Shown: piece after piece, positions 6,140-35,495 of the stretch | Layout of the letters: each line of letters starts with the position of its first letter | Position numbering within the stretch: the first letter of the stretch is position 1 | Source of the DNA: Chitinivibrio alkaliphilus ACht1 | GTDB lineage: Bacteria > Fibrobacterota > Chitinivibrionia > Chitinivibrionales > Chitinivibrionaceae | Length of the DNA: 64,000 bases | Assembly (NCBI RefSeq): GCF_000474745.1 | Contig: NZ_ASJR01000008.1 | Location: forward strand, 1-64,000 | Reading direction: 5' to 3' | Made by a program: the position numbers and the translations under genes | The notes under the pieces: model-generated | The model's input: the letters and a program-made list of their open reading frames with translations, nothing else | Databases searched by the model: none | What the model was told of the DNA's origin: nothing

Positions 6140-6610
6140 TTACTGCACGTTTTCAATTTTCCATGTATCACCTTCAAGAACCATGGTAACATTGTGGGTT
6201 TCCCCATCGTCACCTGCTACAGCAAGCACAGCAGAATCTTCATCCACCTCTTCTGAAATCACCTCTCCTTGAATAAAGGAGGCGGCATTTTCTTCCGGAG
6301 TCCCCTGACTCATGAGGGTAATAAAAATCTCCCGACCATCCTTGCCCTCTAAGCTCTCAAAAAGCTCGGCATTCTCATCATCTTCTTCCATCATGGCGCT
6401 CATCTGCACCATCATCTCAAAGATCTCGCTCATTTCTTCCTGAGATTTCTCCGAATACGCATCAAAGACCTCACCATACTCCCCCTCTTCAAGAGAGCGC
6501 AAGAGCTGATTAAAACTACCTGTCGGGGTAGAGGTGTCAACATCGGTGGACTCTGTACATGCAACAAAGAGAAACATACACGAGAACACGAGGGCCATAC
6601 ACAATTTCAT
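6140..6610 (-). CDS. Small lipoprotein, NTF2/DUF4878-like
   Basis: 156 residues with a lipoprotein signal: a hydrophobic stretch ending in FVAC, the Cys at residue 18 being the predicted lipid-modified one. The mature part is very acidic (EEDDENAELFESLEG) with repeated Met. Its layout (helical 'FNQLLRSLEEGEYGEVFDAY' start, C-terminal strands ending GDTWKIENVQ) is like the DUF4878/NTF2-like lipoproteins often found in Gram-negative bacteria. AAGGAGATAGT precedes the ATG. It sits 15 bases after the MscS gene and is the last gene before the terminator. Its function is unknown. Confidence 0.75.
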   Translation of the reverse strand: MKLCMALVFSCMFLFVACTESTDVDTSTPTGSFNQLLRSLEEGEYGEVFDAYSEKSQEEMSEIFEMMVQMSAMMEEDDENAELFESLEGKDGREIFITLMSQGTPEENAASFIQGEVISEEVDEDSAVLAVAGDDGETHNVTMVLEGDTWKIENVQ

Positions 6611-6625
6611 ACTATCTCCTTATAA

Positions 6626-7531
6626 TTACGACTCATTGGCTATTTTTAAACTTTCAATCTCACTCCCCCAGTATACCGTGCGATGCGGAAAGGGAATTTC
6701 AATATTATGCTCATCGAAGGCCCGTTTCAACCGACGACGATATTCACGGGCAGTCTTCCACTGTTCAATAGGACGGGTTTTAATACGTAAACGAATATCT
6801 ATAGCACTATCTCCAAAATTATCAACCCCCATAATTTCTATGGGTTCTAATATGGCTGGTCCAAACTCCTCATCTTCGGCAAGTTCTTCTCCCACGGTCC
6901 GCATTACATCCATGACCGCATCAAGATCTTCCTTATACGCAACCCCAATAGTTAACACCGCCGCAGACCACTCCTTTGTAAGATTGGAAAAAGAGTTGAT
7001 CTTCCCATTTTGAAACACATGGACAACCCCAGACACATCTCGTAGGACAATGGTACGCAGGCCAACCTGTTGCACCAACCCACCCGTGCCGTTGATATTC
7101 ACCACATCGCCCTTGCGAATGTGATTTTCCATAAGAATAAAGAAACCGGAGATAAAATCACGAACCAACTCTTGCGAACCAAAACCAAGACCCAACCCGA
7201 TAATCCCCGCCCCGGCAATGAGGGGGGCAATATCAACCCCAACTTCTTTGAGAATTAACATGCCCGCAATGGCAAAAATCCCAACCTTTACGAGGGATTT
7301 TAGGATACCCAGCAGGGTTTCAAGGCGTTTTTCCTCTTCTCCCTCGTTGCTCGATGATCCGTGGGTCATATTTTTTAACACAATCGGATAGAGACGACTA
7401 ATTACGCTCCGACTCAGGCGAATAGCCACCCAGCTGATAATACAAATGAGAATAATCATTGGAAGGGTACTGATACTCCACTGCACAATTATATCAGAAT
7501 ACTCCCGTACCATTTCCTGGTATGATTCCAT
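6626..7531 (-). CDS. mscS: MscS-family mechanosensitive channel
   Basis: 301 residues. Three hydrophobic segments come first: ~18-40, ~78-100, and the pore helix ~105-130 with the glycine/alanine-rich pattern GAGIIGLGLGFGSQ. The MscS beta domain follows (GDVVNINGTGGLVQQVGLRTIVLRD), then an alpha/beta C-terminal cage. The family opens on membrane tension to release solutes on hypo-osmotic shock. I place the start at ATG 7531 because GGAGGA lies 6 bases upstream; the in-frame TTG at 7537 touches that ribosome site. A hydrophilic linker near residue 60 (HGSSSNEGEEEKR) is unusually acidic. Confidence 0.92.
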   Translation of the reverse strand: MESYQEMVREYSDIIVQWSISTLPMIILICIISWVAIRLSRSVISRLYPIVLKNMTHGSSSNEGEEEKRLETLLGILKSLVKVGIFAIAGMLILKEVGVDIAPLIAGAGIIGLGLGFGSQELVRDFISGFFILMENHIRKGDVVNINGTGGLVQQVGLRTIVLRDVSGVVHVFQNGKINSFSNLTKEWSAAVLTIGVAYKEDLDAVMDVMRTVGEELAEDEEFGPAILEPIEIMGVDNFGDSAIDIRLRIKTRPIEQWKTAREYRRRLKRAFDEHNIEIPFPHRTVYWGSEIESLKIANES

Positions 7532-7594
7532 GGTCAATCCTCCATTCTCACACTTTCCTAGTAAAGTACGTTACGTACACATGCATGTACAAGA

Positions 7595-9595
7595 TTATTT
7601 TAATCCCTCCAGGATATACTGAAATATGGGATTGTTTTCTTTCTCTCGCGGTTCCTGAAGCCAGAAAGGGAGATATTCCGGTTGTTGCAGCATTTTCCGG
7701 TCGAGTAACTCAGCCGTGGTCTTATAGTATTGTCGGGAACATTTTCCTACAAAAAGCGGGGTCAAATCTACCCCATCCTTCCACAGGGAGTAGAGCTGGG
7801 TAAACCCGGAAAGATAAAGAAAATCCTTGGTGAGCCCTCCACCGCGAAAGACCCGGGTGGTTGTGGTAAAAGCATCCTTGGGGGCTACATTGTATTGGTC
7901 CACAAGATGTTCAAAGGTGGTCTTAAAATCAGCGCCATTACAAATATCATATACGGCGATCACCCTCAGAGCTAACTTTTTTAATCGTCTCATGGTGAGA
8001 TTACCCGAAAGATACTCCCCCAATACAGCAAGCCCCTCCTGCGTCTTTGTGTTGACAGGCAGGCCGAGACGGAAGAGGTGCAGGGGCTGCACCGCGGCAT
8101 TGATGGTGGTTACCATATGTACCCCAATTTCATGGTGCACCAGATACCGAAGCTCACGACGGGTAAAACGGGCGTCCTGTTTCACCACCACCTTTTTGTC
8201 ACGATTAATTACCATTACATCGGACACCACATTTTTTTGAATATCACACACCCCACGAAATCCATAGCGATCAAACTCTTCTTCAAAAACCCGTTTTGCC
8301 TCGGCGCTATCAAAGGATGGTTCAGGCCGTTCTTCCTCTGCAATGGGCGGCAACATAAGAAGATACCGGGCATTTTCCAAATCTCGCTCCGTGGGTTCTC
8401 CAAAATACCGAAGAGAATTGTAGAGAAAATCATCCTGATCCCGCGTTGCAATCATATCTATCTGATCATTAAACCCTTGTATCGAAGCGGCATAGAGCTC
8501 TTGCAAAGCAAGGTCAGTCAGTTTTTCCACGGGAAGATTCAACAACTCCCGTTTTAAGAGGAACGCATCAATCTGTATTTTTCGATACCGAAAGGAGGGG
8601 TTGTTTCGATAGCCACTCCGGAAAAAGGCACTTCGTTCACTGCGCATATTCACTGGATTCAGAAGGGAGAGCAGCTCAAAACGGCGAAGAGCAGAAAAGA
8701 GCCGTCGGTCAATCTGCACAAGATGCTGTTCCGGTTTCTCAGAGAGAAGGTGGTGCTTCTTTGTTTTGTTCCAGGTTGTCATTGTTTCAGCAAACTCATA
8801 GGCCATATCAATACAGGCTCGATGCAGCTGAAGCTTCAACTCACGTATTACTTCGGGGTAGCTTTCACCGCTTTTTTCATCACAATACACCTTCTTAATT
8901 TCCGTTGCAAGAACCAAGCTGCGAGGAAAATTCTCTCGAATATACCGCAGGGCATACCCACGCCCAAAAAAGACATCGTTTACGGCACACCCCGATTCAT
9001 TGGCGATGCAACATTGAGAAAGGCGGTTTTGCCACGCCGTAACCATGGAACCAAAGGTTTCTGTATCAACGTGTTCACTGCCAATATTGAATAAGGGAAC
9101 AGGCCGATTCCACCGCTCATAGTTGTAGGAGTGGATATCAAAGACAAGGACACGACCGAAGCGCTCTTCCAAGACAGCGAGAATCCCCGAAAGAAGTTGA
9201 TAATACTGTCTGTGTTTTGCCACGGTTTCACGGCGCTCTTTCTCAGTCAGCTCCTGTCTCCACACGTGTTTTCCCCAAGCTACATCGTAAATGCACTCTT
9301 CTGGAGATCTATTTAAGTCATACTCAAAACGGGAATCAAGACCGGTGAGGGTAATGGGAAGAGAGTCGATACAGTCTCCAGTATAGGGGTCTTCTTCATA
9401 CCAGCGCTCATACTCGGAAAGAGCCGTTTTTGCCACAAGAGACGGGCGCATACGGTTGCCGTTATGTATCGCCATGGCGATACAGGGCACATACTTGGTA
9501 ACACGAATACGCACGGATTCATCCAAGGTACAGGCGGAGAAATGTTCCCCCGCACGCACCTTCTGAACTATCTCCGCCACGGAAAGCCTACGCAT
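7595..9595 (-). CDS. Fusion of N-formylglutamate amidohydrolase-like and DUF1704 (QEGLA-motif) metallopeptidase-like domains
   Basis: 666 residues, two domains. Residues ~30-260 match the N-formylglutamate amidohydrolase fold (AIHNGNR, DSRFEYDLNR at 87-96, VFDIHSYN at 151-158, IGSEHVD). Residues ~300-666 are DUF1704: the zinc-peptidase-like HEIGVH is at 488-493 and QEGLA at 519-523. Bacterial DUF1704 proteins are named 'flavohemoglobin expression-modulating QEGLA motif' proteins; eukaryotic relatives (MATCAP) are tyrosine carboxypeptidases that use HExxxH and a downstream Glu. The start overlaps the end of the upstream ATP-grasp gene by 8 bases, with AGGTGA as ribosome site. Natural substrate unknown; a tail-trimming peptidase paired with a ligase is an inference. 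Confidence 0.88.
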   Translation of the reverse strand: MRRLSVAEIVQKVRAGEHFSACTLDESVRIRVTKYVPCIAMAIHNGNRMRPSLVAKTALSEYERWYEEDPYTGDCIDSLPITLTGLDSRFEYDLNRSPEECIYDVAWGKHVWRQELTEKERRETVAKHRQYYQLLSGILAVLEERFGRVLVFDIHSYNYERWNRPVPLFNIGSEHVDTETFGSMVTAWQNRLSQCCIANESGCAVNDVFFGRGYALRYIRENFPRSLVLATEIKKVYCDEKSGESYPEVIRELKLQLHRACIDMAYEFAETMTTWNKTKKHHLLSEKPEQHLVQIDRRLFSALRRFELLSLLNPVNMRSERSAFFRSGYRNNPSFRYRKIQIDAFLLKRELLNLPVEKLTDLALQELYAASIQGFNDQIDMIATRDQDDFLYNSLRYFGEPTERDLENARYLLMLPPIAEEERPEPSFDSAEAKRVFEEEFDRYGFRGVCDIQKNVVSDVMVINRDKKVVVKQDARFTRRELRYLVHHEIGVHMVTTINAAVQPLHLFRLGLPVNTKTQEGLAVLGEYLSGNLTMRRLKKLALRVIAVYDICNGADFKTTFEHLVDQYNVAPKDAFTTTTRVFRGGGLTKDFLYLSGFTQLYSLWKDGVDLTPLFVGKCSRQYYKTTAELLDRKMLQQPEYLPFWLQEPREKENNPIFQYILEGLK

Positions 9596-10622
9596 TTTTC
9601 ACCTGCTCTTTCAGGGCCACCTTTCGCTCAGACAACTTCTTCTCGTAGTTGGTTACATCCTCAATAAAATTGATAATATCTTCCTGCAACTTACACTTAT
9701 TGAGGTGATTAATATTGACAATCCCTCCGGGACTCATCACATTTACTTCAATCAGCTTTTCTCCAATTAAGTCAAGACCAACAAAGTAGAGCCCGTCCTG
9801 TACCAGCTTCTTTCCGATACGCCGACACAACTTCAACTCCCCCTTACCTAAGACATGCTTTTTCACCGATCCCCCCACAGAGAAATTTGACCGGGGGTCA
9901 TTTTTGGGGGGAACACGCCGCATAGCGCCCAAGGGCTCTCCATTTAACATAAGTACCCGAACATCACCGTCTTCAGCCCCCTCAACATACTCCTGCAGTA
10001 TCACATAGTTTGAGGTCCCACCGGAAATACCGTCGATGTAGAAATCTAAGAGGGAGTTGATATTTTGCCGCGCACTTTTCTCAATGACAATAACCCCGCT
10101 TCCCCCAAACCCGTCCAGGGGCTTCATAATCATCTTTTCCCCGTCATGCTCATCAATAACCTTCTTCAAATACTCCTTGTTTTTTGACACATAGGTGGCA
10201 GGAATCAAGTTGTAGTCTGGGTCGTAATACGATGCCGTGTACACCTTATTATTTGCCTCCCGGAGGCCTTCAACGCTATTCAGAATGAAGACATTATTTT
10301 TTACAGAGTCAAGGAAATTAAGGATGAAGGAATCCATGGGAGGATTATCCCGCATAAATATGGTATCAAACCCTTCAAGGGGAAGCATGTGTTTTTTAAA
10401 TTGTGCATGCTTATAAAAGGATACAAAATTTTTTGAAATAGTCTCCGTCTTTTCAAAGGTCTCACAGAACGCCATGGTAATACAATCACGGATTGTTAAA
10501 TTCTTCGGCGTTGTTATAGAAACGGTGTGTCCCCGCTTTACAGCTTCATGAATAATGCGCAGGGTAGAGTCTTTCTTTGGATCCACCGCGTCCCAGGGAT
10601 ACATTATGAAACAAATATCCAT
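9588..10622 (-). CDS. ATP-grasp ligase, glutathione synthetase/RimK-like
   Basis: 344 residues. The N-terminal third resembles the GshB substrate domain (MDICFIMYPWDAVDP, DTIFMRDNPPMD). The ATP-grasp part is clear: EKMIMKPLDGFGGSGVIVI (lysine and glycine-rich loop), QEYVEGAEDGDVRVL, and the metal-binding end LIGEKLIEVNVMSPGG. GshB-type enzymes join an amino acid to a peptide carboxylate using ATP. No gshA is seen nearby, so glutathione need not be the product. The next gene overlaps by 8 bases, and pairing with the DUF1704 fusion points to a shared substrate (inference). GAGAGG precedes the ATG. Confidence 0.85.
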   Translation of the reverse strand: MDICFIMYPWDAVDPKKDSTLRIIHEAVKRGHTVSITTPKNLTIRDCITMAFCETFEKTETISKNFVSFYKHAQFKKHMLPLEGFDTIFMRDNPPMDSFILNFLDSVKNNVFILNSVEGLREANNKVYTASYYDPDYNLIPATYVSKNKEYLKKVIDEHDGEKMIMKPLDGFGGSGVIVIEKSARQNINSLLDFYIDGISGGTSNYVILQEYVEGAEDGDVRVLMLNGEPLGAMRRVPPKNDPRSNFSVGGSVKKHVLGKGELKLCRRIGKKLVQDGLYFVGLDLIGEKLIEVNVMSPGGIVNINHLNKCKLQEDIINFIEDVTNYEKKLSERKVALKEQVKNA

Positions 10623-10786: not shown

Positions 10787-10812
10787 AAAAAAAGGCGCCC
10801 CACGGGGACGCC
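10787..10812 (-). terminator. Terminator downstream of rng
   Basis: A GC-rich stem (10794-10801 with 10804-10812, one bulged base) is followed on the minus strand by a run of eight T (complement of the A run at 10786-10793). It lies 25 bases past the rng stop and isolates rng from the ATP-grasp gene. Confidence 0.8.
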
Positions 10813-13727: not shown

Positions 13728-15071
13728 CTATTCCCTGGGTCGAAATGGTTGTGTTGCTGCTGTACGCGTGCGTAAATCACCCCGTACGTAGGTTTCAACT
13801 GTATGCACCCGCTCCTTTTCAAACAAGGTTTCATTCATATACACCTTGTTTGTCATGGTTCGCGTAATAGAGAGCTCCTCATTTTCAATGGTATAGCGCG
13901 TTTCCAATAACAGCTCTATGGAAAAAAACTCCTCGGAGAAAGTACTGTCGATGCTCCAGCCGGGGCCATATATATGCGTAGTACTAACACTGTCAACATA
14001 CGCTTCTTCTATGGTAAAAGCGGGGCCGGTGCGAGGATCCTCAATGACCCGCTCATTCTCTTCAACCGTATCCTCGTCAACAATGAGAAGATCGTACTCG
14101 TGGGAAAGATGCCACTCATAGGAAAACAGCTGACTTCGCGGGGTATCTCCATGGTCATCATCTCCATGGTCATCATCTCCATGGTCATCATCTCCATGGT
14201 CATCGTCCCCATGGTCATCGTCCCCATGGTCATCATCTCCATGGTCATCGTCCCCATGGTCATCGTCTCCAAAGGGGAAATCTCCTTCATAGAGCTCTAA
14301 CACAAGGGTATCCGGTAACGGAATATCTCCGACCTGATCCAAACCCAAGGTGAGGTGGTCACCCTGGCGAGCGTAGGAAAGAGCGAGAGAATCCCCTCGG
14401 ATTTGCGTGGCAGAAACCGTGGAGATAGAAAATGTCTCCCACTCAGGATCATCAGTATGCAACTGGTGAATTCGCACCCACTCTTGCGAAAACTCCAAGC
14501 CAATTCGCGGTTCATCGATATGCATGGTATCACCGTGCTGAATCTCCTTTCGGGGAAGCCAATTTCCTACAAAAGAGAAGGAGTCCTCGTGGCCATGGTC
14601 ATCATCAATCCAGTTATCCGGTGGCACAGGCCCATCATAAGGAAGCAGATGCACCGTACGAGAGAGTTCACCATCATCGGTGTGAGCAACTTGATGGAGG
14701 ATTAGCTTATCACCGCGAAAGGAAAACTCCGTCACGTCCCCCGCTCCCTCGGGAAGCGTAAACAAGGCTTCTCCATACAATGCATCTTCGCTAATGCTAT
14801 CAAGGGCAATACTCTCAGATCGATACTCACCGCCTTCCAGGACATGCACTACCACCTTCGATTCAGAGATCTGAAGTATCTCCGTGGTATCTTCTATATG
14901 GATGGTGTCTGAAAGAGTACCATACTCCTCCACGATTGAAACAGTATACCAATCTGAGTCAAGCAGATCCGACCGTGCAGAATCATCCCCCTGCGGCCCC
15001 GTGGGATCACTATCGCTGGAACAGCCAAAGAGCACAACAAAAAAGAAAATATACCAAATATACGTTTTCAT
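13728..15071 (-). CDS. Lipoprotein with a (DDHGD)n metal-binding-like tract
   Basis: 447 residues from ATG 15071. The frame is open further upstream through the tRNA-Asn gene, which cannot be coding, and the signal peptide MKTYIWYIFFFVVLFGC starts here with Cys17 as lipobox cysteine. The mature protein has two similar beta-rich halves (each with 'G..L.....R.V' strands and a 'GDxLxL' turn). They are joined by about 43 residues of Asp/His/Gly in which DDHGD repeats eight times. Such His/Asp tracts bind Zn, Ni or Ca in other proteins; here that is inference. It probably sits on the periplasmic or outer face. No family recognised. Confidence 0.8.
   Translation of the reverse strand: MKTYIWYIFFFVVLFGCSSDSDPTGPQGDDSARSDLLDSDWYTVSIVEEYGTLSDTIHIEDTTEILQISESKVVVHVLEGGEYRSESIALDSISEDALYGEALFTLPEGAGDVTEFSFRGDKLILHQVAHTDDGELSRTVHLLPYDGPVPPDNWIDDDHGHEDSFSFVGNWLPRKEIQHGDTMHIDEPRIGLEFSQEWVRIHQLHTDDPEWETFSISTVSATQIRGDSLALSYARQGDHLTLGLDQVGDIPLPDTLVLELYEGDFPFGDDDHGDDDHGDDDHGDDDHGDDDHGDDDHGDDDHGDDDHGDTPRSQLFSYEWHLSHEYDLLIVDEDTVEENERVIEDPRTGPAFTIEEAYVDSVSTTHIYGPGWSIDSTFSEEFFSIELLLETRYTIENEELSITRTMTNKVYMNETLFEKERVHTVETYVRGDLRTRTAATQPFRPRE
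14146..14265 (-). repeat. Eight 15-bp tandem repeats encoding DDHGD
   Basis: Eight head-to-tail copies of a 15-bp unit (plus strand TCTCCATGGTCATCA and close variants, with C/T at position 3 and A/G at position 15). The unit is five codons long, so copy-number change would keep the frame. A further partial unit is seen towards 14280. The near identity of copies suggests recent expansion by slippage. Confidence 0.92.
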
Positions 15072-15175
15072 AGAACCCCCAAAATAAACATTGTTTATAC
15101 ATATAGTATACATTCGACACAGGGCGCAGTCAAGGAACGGAGATAAAAAACAGAGCAGACGTATAAAAGGGGTAT

Positions 15176-15202
15176 AAAAAAAGGCCCCGCTGATGCGGGG
15201 CC
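15176..15202 (-). terminator. Terminator of tRNA-Asn
   Basis: Perfect 8-bp GC stem (15183-15190 with 15195-15202), four-base loop, then seven T on the minus strand (complement of 15176-15182). It lies immediately past the tRNA 3' end. Confidence 0.9.
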
Positions 15203-15205
15203 ATA

Positions 15206-15281
15206 TGGCTGGAGTGGAGGGACTTGAACCCCCGACCCAGTGGTTAACAGCCACTTGCTCTGCCGACTGAGCTACACTCCA
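15206..15281 (-). tRNA. tRNA-Asn (anticodon GTT)
   Basis: A full cloverleaf reads on the minus strand: acceptor TGGAGTG/CACTCCA, D-arm GCTC...GAGC, anticodon stem AGTGG/CCACT around loop CTGTTAA (GTT), T-loop TTCAAGT, discriminator G and an encoded CCA at 15206-15208. It is a stand-alone gene with its own promoter and terminator. Confidence 0.95.
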
Positions 15282-15300
15282 GTATCGAAATAACGCCCAT

Positions 15301-15329
15301 AATATACGTGAGGAAAATGGAGGAGTCAA
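15301..15329 (-). promoter_or_regulatory. Sigma-70 promoter of tRNA-Asn
   Basis: On the minus strand TTGACT (15324-15329) and TATATT (15301-15306) are separated by exactly 17 bases, placing transcription start about a dozen bases before the tRNA. Confidence 0.75.
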
Positions 15330-28534: not shown

Positions 28535-28576
28535 TTAGGATGTGAACAAAATTAGTTTCTTTTTTTGGAGGTTCTT

Positions 28577-29035
28577 ATGAACAGAAAAGGTTTTACCTTA
28601 GTAGAGTTGATGGTTGTAATTGTAATTATCGGTATCCTTGCGGCAGTAGCCCTGCCTCAGATGATGGGTGCCACGGACAGAGCGCGGGCATCGGAAGTTC
28701 CCACAATGCTTCGCACCATCCAGAATGCCCAAAACGCCTATTACGCAGCAACCGGCGAATACGGCGACTGGGATGCTATTGGAGTTGAAGATCCCTCAAA
28801 GGACAGTGATTTCTTTGATTATGAGCTGACACTCTCAGGTGATGATGATGATGATGATGATGGTTACGATAATTACAAAGCAGAAGCTAAGGCAACTATG
28901 ACTATGGGCGACATCACTTCAGGAGACGTTGTTGCAAGTGTAAATAATGATAACGAAAGAAAATCCCATGATGATTTTCATACCTTGGCGCCCAACTGGA
29001 GAAACGCTACCGGTAATTCGGATGACGATGACTAA
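28577..29035 (+). CDS. Type IV pilin-like protein with Asp-rich insert
   Basis: 152 residues from ATG 28577, five bases after GGAGG. Class III signal: MNRKG then cleavage before Phe, Glu5 of the mature form present (FTLVELMVVIVIIGILAAV). The conserved N-terminal helix runs on to 'RASEVPTMLRTIQNAQNAYY'. The C-terminal domain contains seven Asp in a row encoded by pure GAT repeats (~28841-28862) and ends in NSDDDD. Acidic surface may bind calcium (inference). Probably a major pilin or pseudopilin. It has its own promoter and terminator. Confidence 0.9.
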   Translation: MNRKGFTLVELMVVIVIIGILAAVALPQMMGATDRARASEVPTMLRTIQNAQNAYYAATGEYGDWDAIGVEDPSKDSDFFDYELTLSGDDDDDDDGYDNYKAEAKATMTMGDITSGDVVASVNNDNERKSHDDFHTLAPNWRNATGNSDDDD

Positions 29036-29174: not shown

Positions 29175-29594
29175 ATGAAACAGAAGGGCTTTACCTTAGT
29201 GGAACTCATGGTAGTCATTGTGATCATTGGTATTATCGCCATGCTTGCCATACCAAATTATCTGCGCTATGCAGACCGGGCACGTACCTCAGAAATAGCA
29301 CCCACCCTGCGCACCATAAACAATGCCATCTGGCTGGATTACTCAGAAACGGGTGAATGGATTACCTCTGCAGAGGAGAGCGATCTGCAAACTCTCTCCA
29401 TAACTATCCCGGAAAGTAAGTTTTTTGAGTATAACATCTCCCCCGGAGGTGGCCAGAACTATCGTGTCTATGCCGTCCCTAAAAGCGGAGTATCCCTGTA
29501 CGGAGTGAACGAAGATGACACAGTGTATATAGAAGACGGTGTACGAGGATTTGCAGGTACGGGGTTTCAACCCTATATACCCGGATGGGAATAG
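29175..29594 (+). CDS. Type IV pilin-like protein 2
   Basis: 139 residues. MKQKG then FTLVELMVVIVIIGIIAML is a class III prepilin signal with Glu5. The helix continues RARTSEIAPTLRTINNAIW, clearly paralogous to the first pilin. The C-terminal domain is distinct (FFEYNISPGGGQNYRVYAVP, GFAGTGFQPYIPGWE). AAAGGGGGA lies before the ATG. It likely arose by duplication of the first gene. The 69-bp repeat with a terminator-like hairpin lies about 100 bases past its stop. Confidence 0.88.
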   Translation: MKQKGFTLVELMVVIVIIGIIAMLAIPNYLRYADRARTSEIAPTLRTINNAIWLDYSETGEWITSAEESDLQTLSITIPESKFFEYNISPGGGQNYRVYAVPKSGVSLYGVNEDDTVYIEDGVRGFAGTGFQPYIPGWE

Positions 29595-35126: not shown

Positions 35127-35495
35127 ATGAAAAACACACGGGGCTTTACCCTTACCGAACTCATGATCGTCATTGCCGTTACGGGCATTCTTGCGGCTAT
35201 CGCCACGCCAATCTACACAAATGTCACGAATAAGGCACGAGCCCGAGAGTTCATGGGGGTTCTCTCTGAACTCCAGATACGACAACGGCAATACTTCCGG
35301 GAAAACCGAGAGTTTCTTTCCATCTCAAAAGGCGATTTTTCCAGTACTGCCGCACAGAAATTAGGCCTTACCGCCGAAACGCACTTTTTTGACTACGAGG
35401 TGACTACCACATCAGATGGGTATACTGCCACGGCAACCCTCAAGGAAAATTTAGGCCGTGCAAAACAAGGCGCACAGGGCACAGGTAACTCATGA
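35127..35495 (+). CDS. Type IV pilin-like protein 3, C-terminus probably frameshifted
   Basis: 122 residues as read. MKNTRG then FTLTELMIVIAVTGILAAI is a class III signal with Glu5; AAAGGAG precedes the ATG. The C-terminal domain includes THFFDYEVTTTSDGYTATATL. The frame stops at 35495 with QGTGNS. In the +1 frame a pilin-like end follows without break (VTHEGEKSYHNDPQDGLQSY then TQDWK, stop at 35562), comparable to the ends of the other pilins. Removing one base near the GGG at 35478-35480 would join them. So the gene may be a frameshift mutant, or the base may be an assembly error. Confidence 0.8.
   Translation: MKNTRGFTLTELMIVIAVTGILAAIATPIYTNVTNKARAREFMGVLSELQIRQRQYFRENREFLSISKGDFSSTAAQKLGLTAETHFFDYEVTTTSDGYTATATLKENLGRAKQGAQGTGNS

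Follow-up and report, generated by a model that had tools for sequence, protein, structure and literature searches.

A GshB/RimK-like ATP-grasp ligase and an FGase-MATCAP fusion protein form a conserved bacterial cassette with a possible make-and-trim function

Background

What does a peptide-forming ligase do beside a protein that joins two hydrolase domains? The question is raised by two overlapping genes in the first 64,000 nucleotides of contig NZ_ASJR01000008.1 of Chitinivibrio alkaliphilus ACht1, the stretch analysed here and called the window. One encodes an ATP-grasp ligase, the other a fusion of an N-formylglutamate-amidohydrolase-like (FGase) domain with a MATCAP (DUF1704) domain. 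A sequence-only reading had seen in the pair an undescribed bacterial tailing cycle or small-molecule pathway. We find that ligase, FGase and MATCAP form a conserved cassette rather than a chance pairing. It may represent a make-and-trim system devoted to a single small, peptide-like substrate other than glutathione, an assignment that we hold about equally likely to be right or wrong; the substrate would be a small, probably acidic, N-capped peptide.

9588 to 10622, minus strand: ATP-grasp ligase of the PRK12458 subfamily (GshB/RimK-like), 344 aa, from domain profiles, tree and AlphaFold2/Foldseek
7595 to 9595, minus strand: FGase-MATCAP fusion protein, 666 aa, from domain profiles and AlphaFold2/Foldseek

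Both open reading frames (ORFs) were recovered as first read, and the reported overlap is real: the start of the fusion gene shares 8 bp (9588-9595) with the end of the ligase gene, the first of the two.

Conservation and architecture of the cassette

The coupling of the three domains, for which the earlier reading had proposed a survey of co-occurrence and fusions, recurs across phyla and in several gene orders. FGase/MATCAP lies directly downstream of the ligase, mostly as one fused gene, in 47 of 67 ligase relatives from named genomes. Among 274 gammaproteobacterial genomes drawn evenly, 14 contain the PRK12458 ligase and 14 a cassette-type MATCAP, and in 12 the two are adjacent, in both gene orders (p = 2.8e-17). 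Another 25 genomes of this sample encode stand-alone QEGLA proteins (about 430-550 aa, 360-460 bits), and none of them has a PRK12458-type ligase. Here and below, absences of genes are called from draft genomes after a first-look filter; statements on the gene content of the window's own genome rest on genome searches.

At least three architectures of the same three parts are found across Bacteroidota, Gammaproteobacteria and Rhizobiaceae. FGase and MATCAP form one fused gene beside the ligase in the first, and the three parts are separate genes in the second (Flavobacteriaceae, Aquimarina). The third has the order FGase, MATCAP, ligase, and its MATCAP protein carries a decayed FGase-like N-terminal domain that has lost its motifs (hhalign 96.7%) while a separate, intact FGase gene adjoins (100%, 34% identity). 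This arrangement is also present on megaplasmids of Rhizobiaceae, among them pSymB of S. meliloti 1021, where the ligase homologue lies at NC_003078 1125697-1126740; substrate and phenotype are thereby accessible to study in a laboratory strain. Because the fused copy has decayed where an intact FGase gene is adjacent, FGase activity appears to be required, and all three activities are kept across architectures. The split genes of Photobacterium locus L015 were not counted as a split architecture; they probably reflect a sequencing frameshift (4-bp overlap; another Photobacterium has the fused ORF).

Two loci carry tandem ligases. At L139 (2435-3481 and 1336-2382, both minus strand) one copy has lost its Gly-rich ATP loop (GIDSQ), and DID stands where the EVN/EIN metal motif would be; it is probably a dead paralogue beside an active one. 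A Marinilabiliales metagenome-assembled genome (MAG; G018, L104:654-2733) has two cassette-type ligases in tandem and after them an FGase, where the contig ends.

The ligase and the glutathione pathway

10260 to 10622, minus strand: GSH-S_N (PF02951), ligase N-terminal domain, residues 1-121, from Pfam
9699 to 10247, minus strand: GSH-S_ATP (PF02955), ligase ATP-grasp domain, residues 126-308, from Pfam
9723 to 9734, minus strand: SPGG, ligase substrate side, residues 297-300, with Gly299 where canonical GshB has an invariant Thr (E. coli Thr288)

The resemblance to GshB and RimK is borne out by domain profiles (PF02951, 2.5e-24; PF02955, 1.3e-51; RimK, 1.6e-15) and by an AlphaFold2 model (mean predicted local distance difference test score, pLDDT, 88.7; like that of the fusion, confident over most of its length), for which Foldseek returned 1gsa as top match, then RimK. 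Its nearest relative of known structure is E. coli GshB (29% identity, template-modelling (TM) score 0.82). The protein belongs to the PRK12458 subfamily by the NCBIfam model NF009110 (424.7 bits, curated cut-off 408), which labels it glutathione synthetase. Of the glutathione-synthase models, NF003573 is passed (276.6, cut-off 272) and the equivalog TIGR01380 is failed (236.7, cut-off 299). It is not a RimK by the models for that family (equivalog PRK10446, 44.3 against 331; rimK_fam, 78 against 143.4).

The tree places cassette ligases and canonical GshBs in two separate clades (support 99/99 and 100/100). The two share 32 aligned residues, including the ATP/Mg residues and Arg210, Arg225 and Arg233 (E. 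coli numbering). On the substrate side, the cassette ligases have invariant Gly, Gly and Asn where E. coli GshB has Thr288 (of SPT), Tyr221 and Glu124.

The sequence-only reading would have fallen had the ligase been an ordinary glutathione synthetase. The ligase does not fill that role in its organism, which has a separate 762-aa GshF (Glu-Cys ligase and ATP-grasp) just past the window (contig 64017-66305, minus strand), 55 kb from the ligase. The cassette ligase coexists with gshA and a canonical GshB (210-280 bits on PF02955) in 20 further genomes, and with a GshF-sized gshA match in genome G016. Neither gshA family, PF04262 or PF04107, is detectable in 12 cassette genomes, nearly all Bacteroidota; one cassette genome has a GCS2-type gene only. 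The product of the ligase is therefore probably not glutathione, since its hosts have separate glutathione genes or no detectable gshA, it forms a clade of its own and its substrate-side residues are changed. Glutathione synthesis as main function was rejected on these same three lines, and gshB annotations in the PRK12458 subfamily should not be taken as evidence of glutathione synthesis.

The fusion protein

8939 to 9487, minus strand: N-formylglutamate-amidohydrolase-like domain (PF05013), residues 37-219, 1e-15, 58.9 bits, Foldseek 2q7s/2odf
9458 to 9466, minus strand: FGase motif H-N-G (His44, Gly46), probable metal ligand, both invariant in 32/32
9122 to 9139, minus strand: FGase motif DIHSYN (Asp153 in 32/32, His155 in 31/32)
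7610 to 8629, minus strand: MATCAP/DUF1704 (PF08014) metallocarboxypeptidase-like domain, residues 323-662, 4.5e-94, Foldseek human MATCAP 7z5g/7z6s
8117 to 8134, minus strand: HEIGVH metal-binding/catalytic motif, residues 488-493 (His488, Glu489 and His493 invariant in 32/32), aligned with human HEIGTH
8027 to 8041, minus strand: QEGLA motif, residues 519-523, Glu520 the probable third metal ligand, invariant in 32/32, aligned with human EEGLA

Structure prediction agrees with the domain assignments first read in both proteins. For the fusion model (mean pLDDT 92.7), Foldseek matches are the N-formylglutamate amidohydrolases 2q7s (E = 2.9e-9) and 2odf together with human MATCAP 7z5g/7z6s (E about 5e-9; TM score 0.71 by target length for 7z6s). 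The N-terminal part is FGase-like and not HutG by the equivalog model TIGR02017 (15.6 against 278.75). The C-terminal part passes the MATCAP-family cut-offs (PF08014, 315.9 against 27; TIGR02421 'QEGLA', 349.8 against 338.65).

Alignment of 32 fusions shows further invariant residues in both parts: Arg64 and Glu68 in FGase; Arg581, Arg584, Lys590, Asp591 and Tyr594 in MATCAP. A MATCAP domain without zinc site or activity would have removed the trimming half of the proposed pair. Instead, this metallocarboxypeptidase-like domain has an intact metal site: neither its metal ligands nor its catalytic Glu vary among the 32 fusions, and they align with those of the human enzyme. Mammalian TMCP1/2, members of the MATCAP family, are demonstrated carboxypeptidases acting on protein C-termini (PMC10499314); for bacterial members our search turned up no such assay. 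A MATCAP-like stretch (hit H28; 37% identity over about 175 aa) was also observed in Pseudomonas phage Y1 (OQ572403.1, 63530-64087).

Proposed function and its alternatives

The sequences show three enzyme domains whose active-site motifs are intact and which are inherited, and transferred between distant bacteria, together. In the proposed mechanism the ligase would use ATP to convert the carboxylate at the C-terminus of a capped or gamma-linked peptide into an acyl phosphate and join an amino acid to it, by GshB/RimK chemistry. The MATCAP domain would take the C-terminal residue off again and the FGase domain would cleave an acyl-amide at the opposite end. With both hydrolases fused, and co-translated with the ligase, the cell could control how much product there is or how long it becomes.

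A physiological setting is suggested by a transcriptome of Photobacterium damselae at 1% NaCl, in which 'GshB' (A0J47_RS17020) is up 38.4-fold and 'QEGLA', the next locus tag (RS17025), 27.5-fold (PMC10308900). The two are apparent orthologues of the cassette genes, judging from the adjacency of their tags on chromosome II and from the occurrence of the cassette elsewhere in Photobacterium; ligase and fusion are present on two large replicons of this genus. The low-salt induction suggests that the product matters in hypo-osmotic growth, by analogy with RloA/RloC of P. aeruginosa.

The same parts could act on a protein tail: the ligase would extend a cellular protein at its C-terminus by Glu or Tyr, MATCAP would remove that residue and FGase would trim a side branch. 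MATCAP-type enzymes do work on protein C-termini (PMC10499314), the RimK modification of RpsF is reversed by RimB (PMC11957791), and the ligase both matches the RimK fold and has a RimK-like SPG where GshB has SPT. A small-molecule product is ranked above it because the known relatives of the FGase domain and of GSH-S_N, the GshB N-domain, normally take small substrates and no conserved neighbour encodes a partner protein such as an acidic-tailed target; a protein tail is unlikely, though to be kept in mind. A role in glutathione or thiol metabolism, with the ligase as a second glutathione synthetase and FGase-MATCAP degrading glutathione or its conjugates, draws on E. coli GshB being the closest solved relative, on NF003573 being passed just above its cut-off and on the name of NF009110. 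The organism's own GshF, the canonical gshA and gshB of 20 hosts, the 12 hosts with no detectable gshA, the separate clade, the failed TIGR01380 model and the altered substrate-side residues make it distinctly improbable. Operons for peptide natural products also combine ATP-grasp ligases with peptidases, and an ABC transporter follows the cassette in S. meliloti. The two hydrolases might accordingly unmask or shorten an intermediate of a ligase-built peptide metabolite in a one-way biosynthesis with no cycle; no conserved biosynthetic, export or precursor gene adjoins the cassette, and we consider this just as improbable. That the genes are chance neighbours with unrelated functions, as the lone ligases of the Rheinheimera lineage might be taken to mean, is scarcely credible given an adjacency of p = 2.8e-17 in one class alone, several architectures, and two genes that are rare in the window's phylum yet occur together there.

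A make-and-trim system for a small peptide is thus preferred, and several observations weigh against it. The parts are separable: 18 of the ligase relatives without adjacent FGase/MATCAP form one lineage (Rheinheimera/Arsukibacterium and an unclassified MAG), in seven tested genomes of which PF08014 was found nowhere, and a replicon of Vibrio HDW18 has the fusion without an adjacent ligase. Joint induction of both enzymes at low salt fits poorly with a simple make-or-destroy switch. The osmotic link comes from one transcriptome, and the mechanosensitive channel gene next to the cassette in the window is not a conserved neighbour.

A wider version of the make-and-trim idea seems quite unlikely. 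It would be a cycle of ligation and trimming at the C-terminus of a peptide or protein when osmolarity changes, using the two superfamilies on which the eukaryotic tubulin tyrosination cycle relies (ATP-grasp and MATCAP) and FGase as a third activity; the ancestral setting that supplied eukaryotes with MATCAP might have looked similar. By score, human MATCAP lies nearer to the cassette type (39.7 bits) than to the stand-alone bacterial type (18.2 bits), but a loop insertion resembles the stand-alone type. With the cassette, the family of a human enzyme that processes tubulin gains a bacterial setting, and two families under misleading annotations ('glutathione synthetase', 'flavohemoglobin expression-modulating QEGLA motif protein') gain a testable job.

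Comparison with known systems

Neighbourhoods of ATP-grasp and peptidase genes were reportedly surveyed by Iyer et al. in 2009 (Mol BioSyst). The cassette ligase shares with canonical GshB (E. coli, 1gsa) its fold, domain order and the 32 conserved aligned residues. It differs in its separate clade, in the replacements Thr288 to Gly, Tyr221 to Gly and Glu124 to Asn, and in its occurrence beside complete glutathione pathways or where gshA was not found.

The RimK/RimB system likewise pairs an ATP-grasp ligase with a protease; a RimB-RimK fusion exists and RimB reverses RimK on RpsF (PMC11957791), so that trimming of the ligase product in the cassette would be a functional analogy. However, the protease there is a retropepsin and here MATCAP plus FGase, and the cassette ligase is GshB-like with GSH-S_N, not Rimk_N. 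The rlo operon of P. aeruginosa also combines an ATP-grasp protein (RloC) with a protease (RloA) and is linked to hypo-osmotic tolerance: without RloA proteases the bacterium does not grow when the medium lacks salt, and loss of RloC restores growth, the ligase thus being epistatic to the protease (PMC12239564). RloA is a secreted retropepsin and is accompanied by the membrane protein RloB, neither of which is seen in the FGase-MATCAP cassette. The operon for the osmolyte N-acetylglutaminylglutamine amide (NAGGN; asnO-ngg-peptidase) again joins a non-ribosomal dipeptide synthetase to a peptidase under osmotic control (PMC8070244). In contrast to the cassette, apparently induced by low osmolarity, NAGGN is induced by high osmolarity; the peptidase is unrelated and the asparagine synthetase-like gene has no counterpart here. 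With human MATCAP/TMCP1 (KIAA0895L) the bacterial domain shares the HExxxH and EG metal site and the fold, but identity is about 20% and the domain is fused here to FGase; the human enzyme trims tubulin, and no bacterial tubulin partner is implied.

The cycle suggested by the sequence-only reading is not new as a category, RimK/RimB (PMC11957791) and RloC/RloA (PMC12239564) being described ATP-grasp/protease pairs. What stands is the combination of a PRK12458-type ligase with FGase and MATCAP, apparently undescribed in searchable papers. For the ligase/FGase-MATCAP pair our literature search found only the Photobacterium transcriptome; an earlier prediction elsewhere is possible.

Genomic context and acquisition

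10794 to 10812, minus strand: strong intrinsic terminator of the upstream rng-type (RNase E/G-type) gene, 8-pair stem and 8 T, marking the start of the transcription unit
6626 to 7537, minus strand: MscS-family channel, 57 bp downstream of the fusion, likely start ATG 7531
6140 to 6610, minus strand: small predicted lipoprotein with no family assigned, final gene of the unit
6117 to 6090: terminator closing the unit, downstream of the small lipoprotein gene

Since terminators flank both ends and none was traced in the gap between fusion and MscS, the transcription unit probably comprises ligase, fusion, MscS and small lipoprotein. MscS is thus a probable operon mate in the window and not a conserved part of the cassette: order-level relatives have the window-type MscS without the cassette. 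As a conserved partner the mechanosensitive channel was rejected, a hidden Markov model scan of 81 other loci (0.9 Mb) giving only 2 matches, about what chance would be expected to give with a few MscS genes per genome. These are an MscK-like gene beside a lone cassette-type MATCAP (L117:4676-8943, minus strand) and MscS after the ligase (L142:4020-8991, plus strand), within a run ligase-CorA-MscS-RimK-AstE/AspA. Both neighbourhoods are suggestive of an ionic or osmotic context, without statistical support.

The cassette was probably inserted in the window by horizontal transfer, because among 168 genomes of the phylum only this one has the ligase or the fusion gene (and it has both), its ligase is nested inside a group of Bacteroidota sequences, and two genomes of the same family have, after the RNase gene, small genes taken to encode ribosomal proteins L21 and L27.

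Beyond lineage synteny, no conserved extra neighbour (precursor, exporter or further biosynthetic gene) was found beside cassette loci. A phage or defence function was rejected, there being no PHROGs or PADLOC match. In several gammaproteobacteria (L015, L042, L049, L061, L063, L175, L176) the cassette, represented in Vibrio HDW18 by the fusion alone, has a LysR gene and maoP, a DUF413 gene, as neighbours, with orientations that differ.

Elsewhere in the window, a predicted lipoprotein-like ORF (13728-15329, minus strand; its listed start apparently too far upstream) carries a long tandem His/Asp repeat of DDHGD units, possibly metal-binding. Three type IV pilin-like genes, two of them in tandem, lie on the plus strand at 28565-29035, 29175-29594 and 35127-35495.

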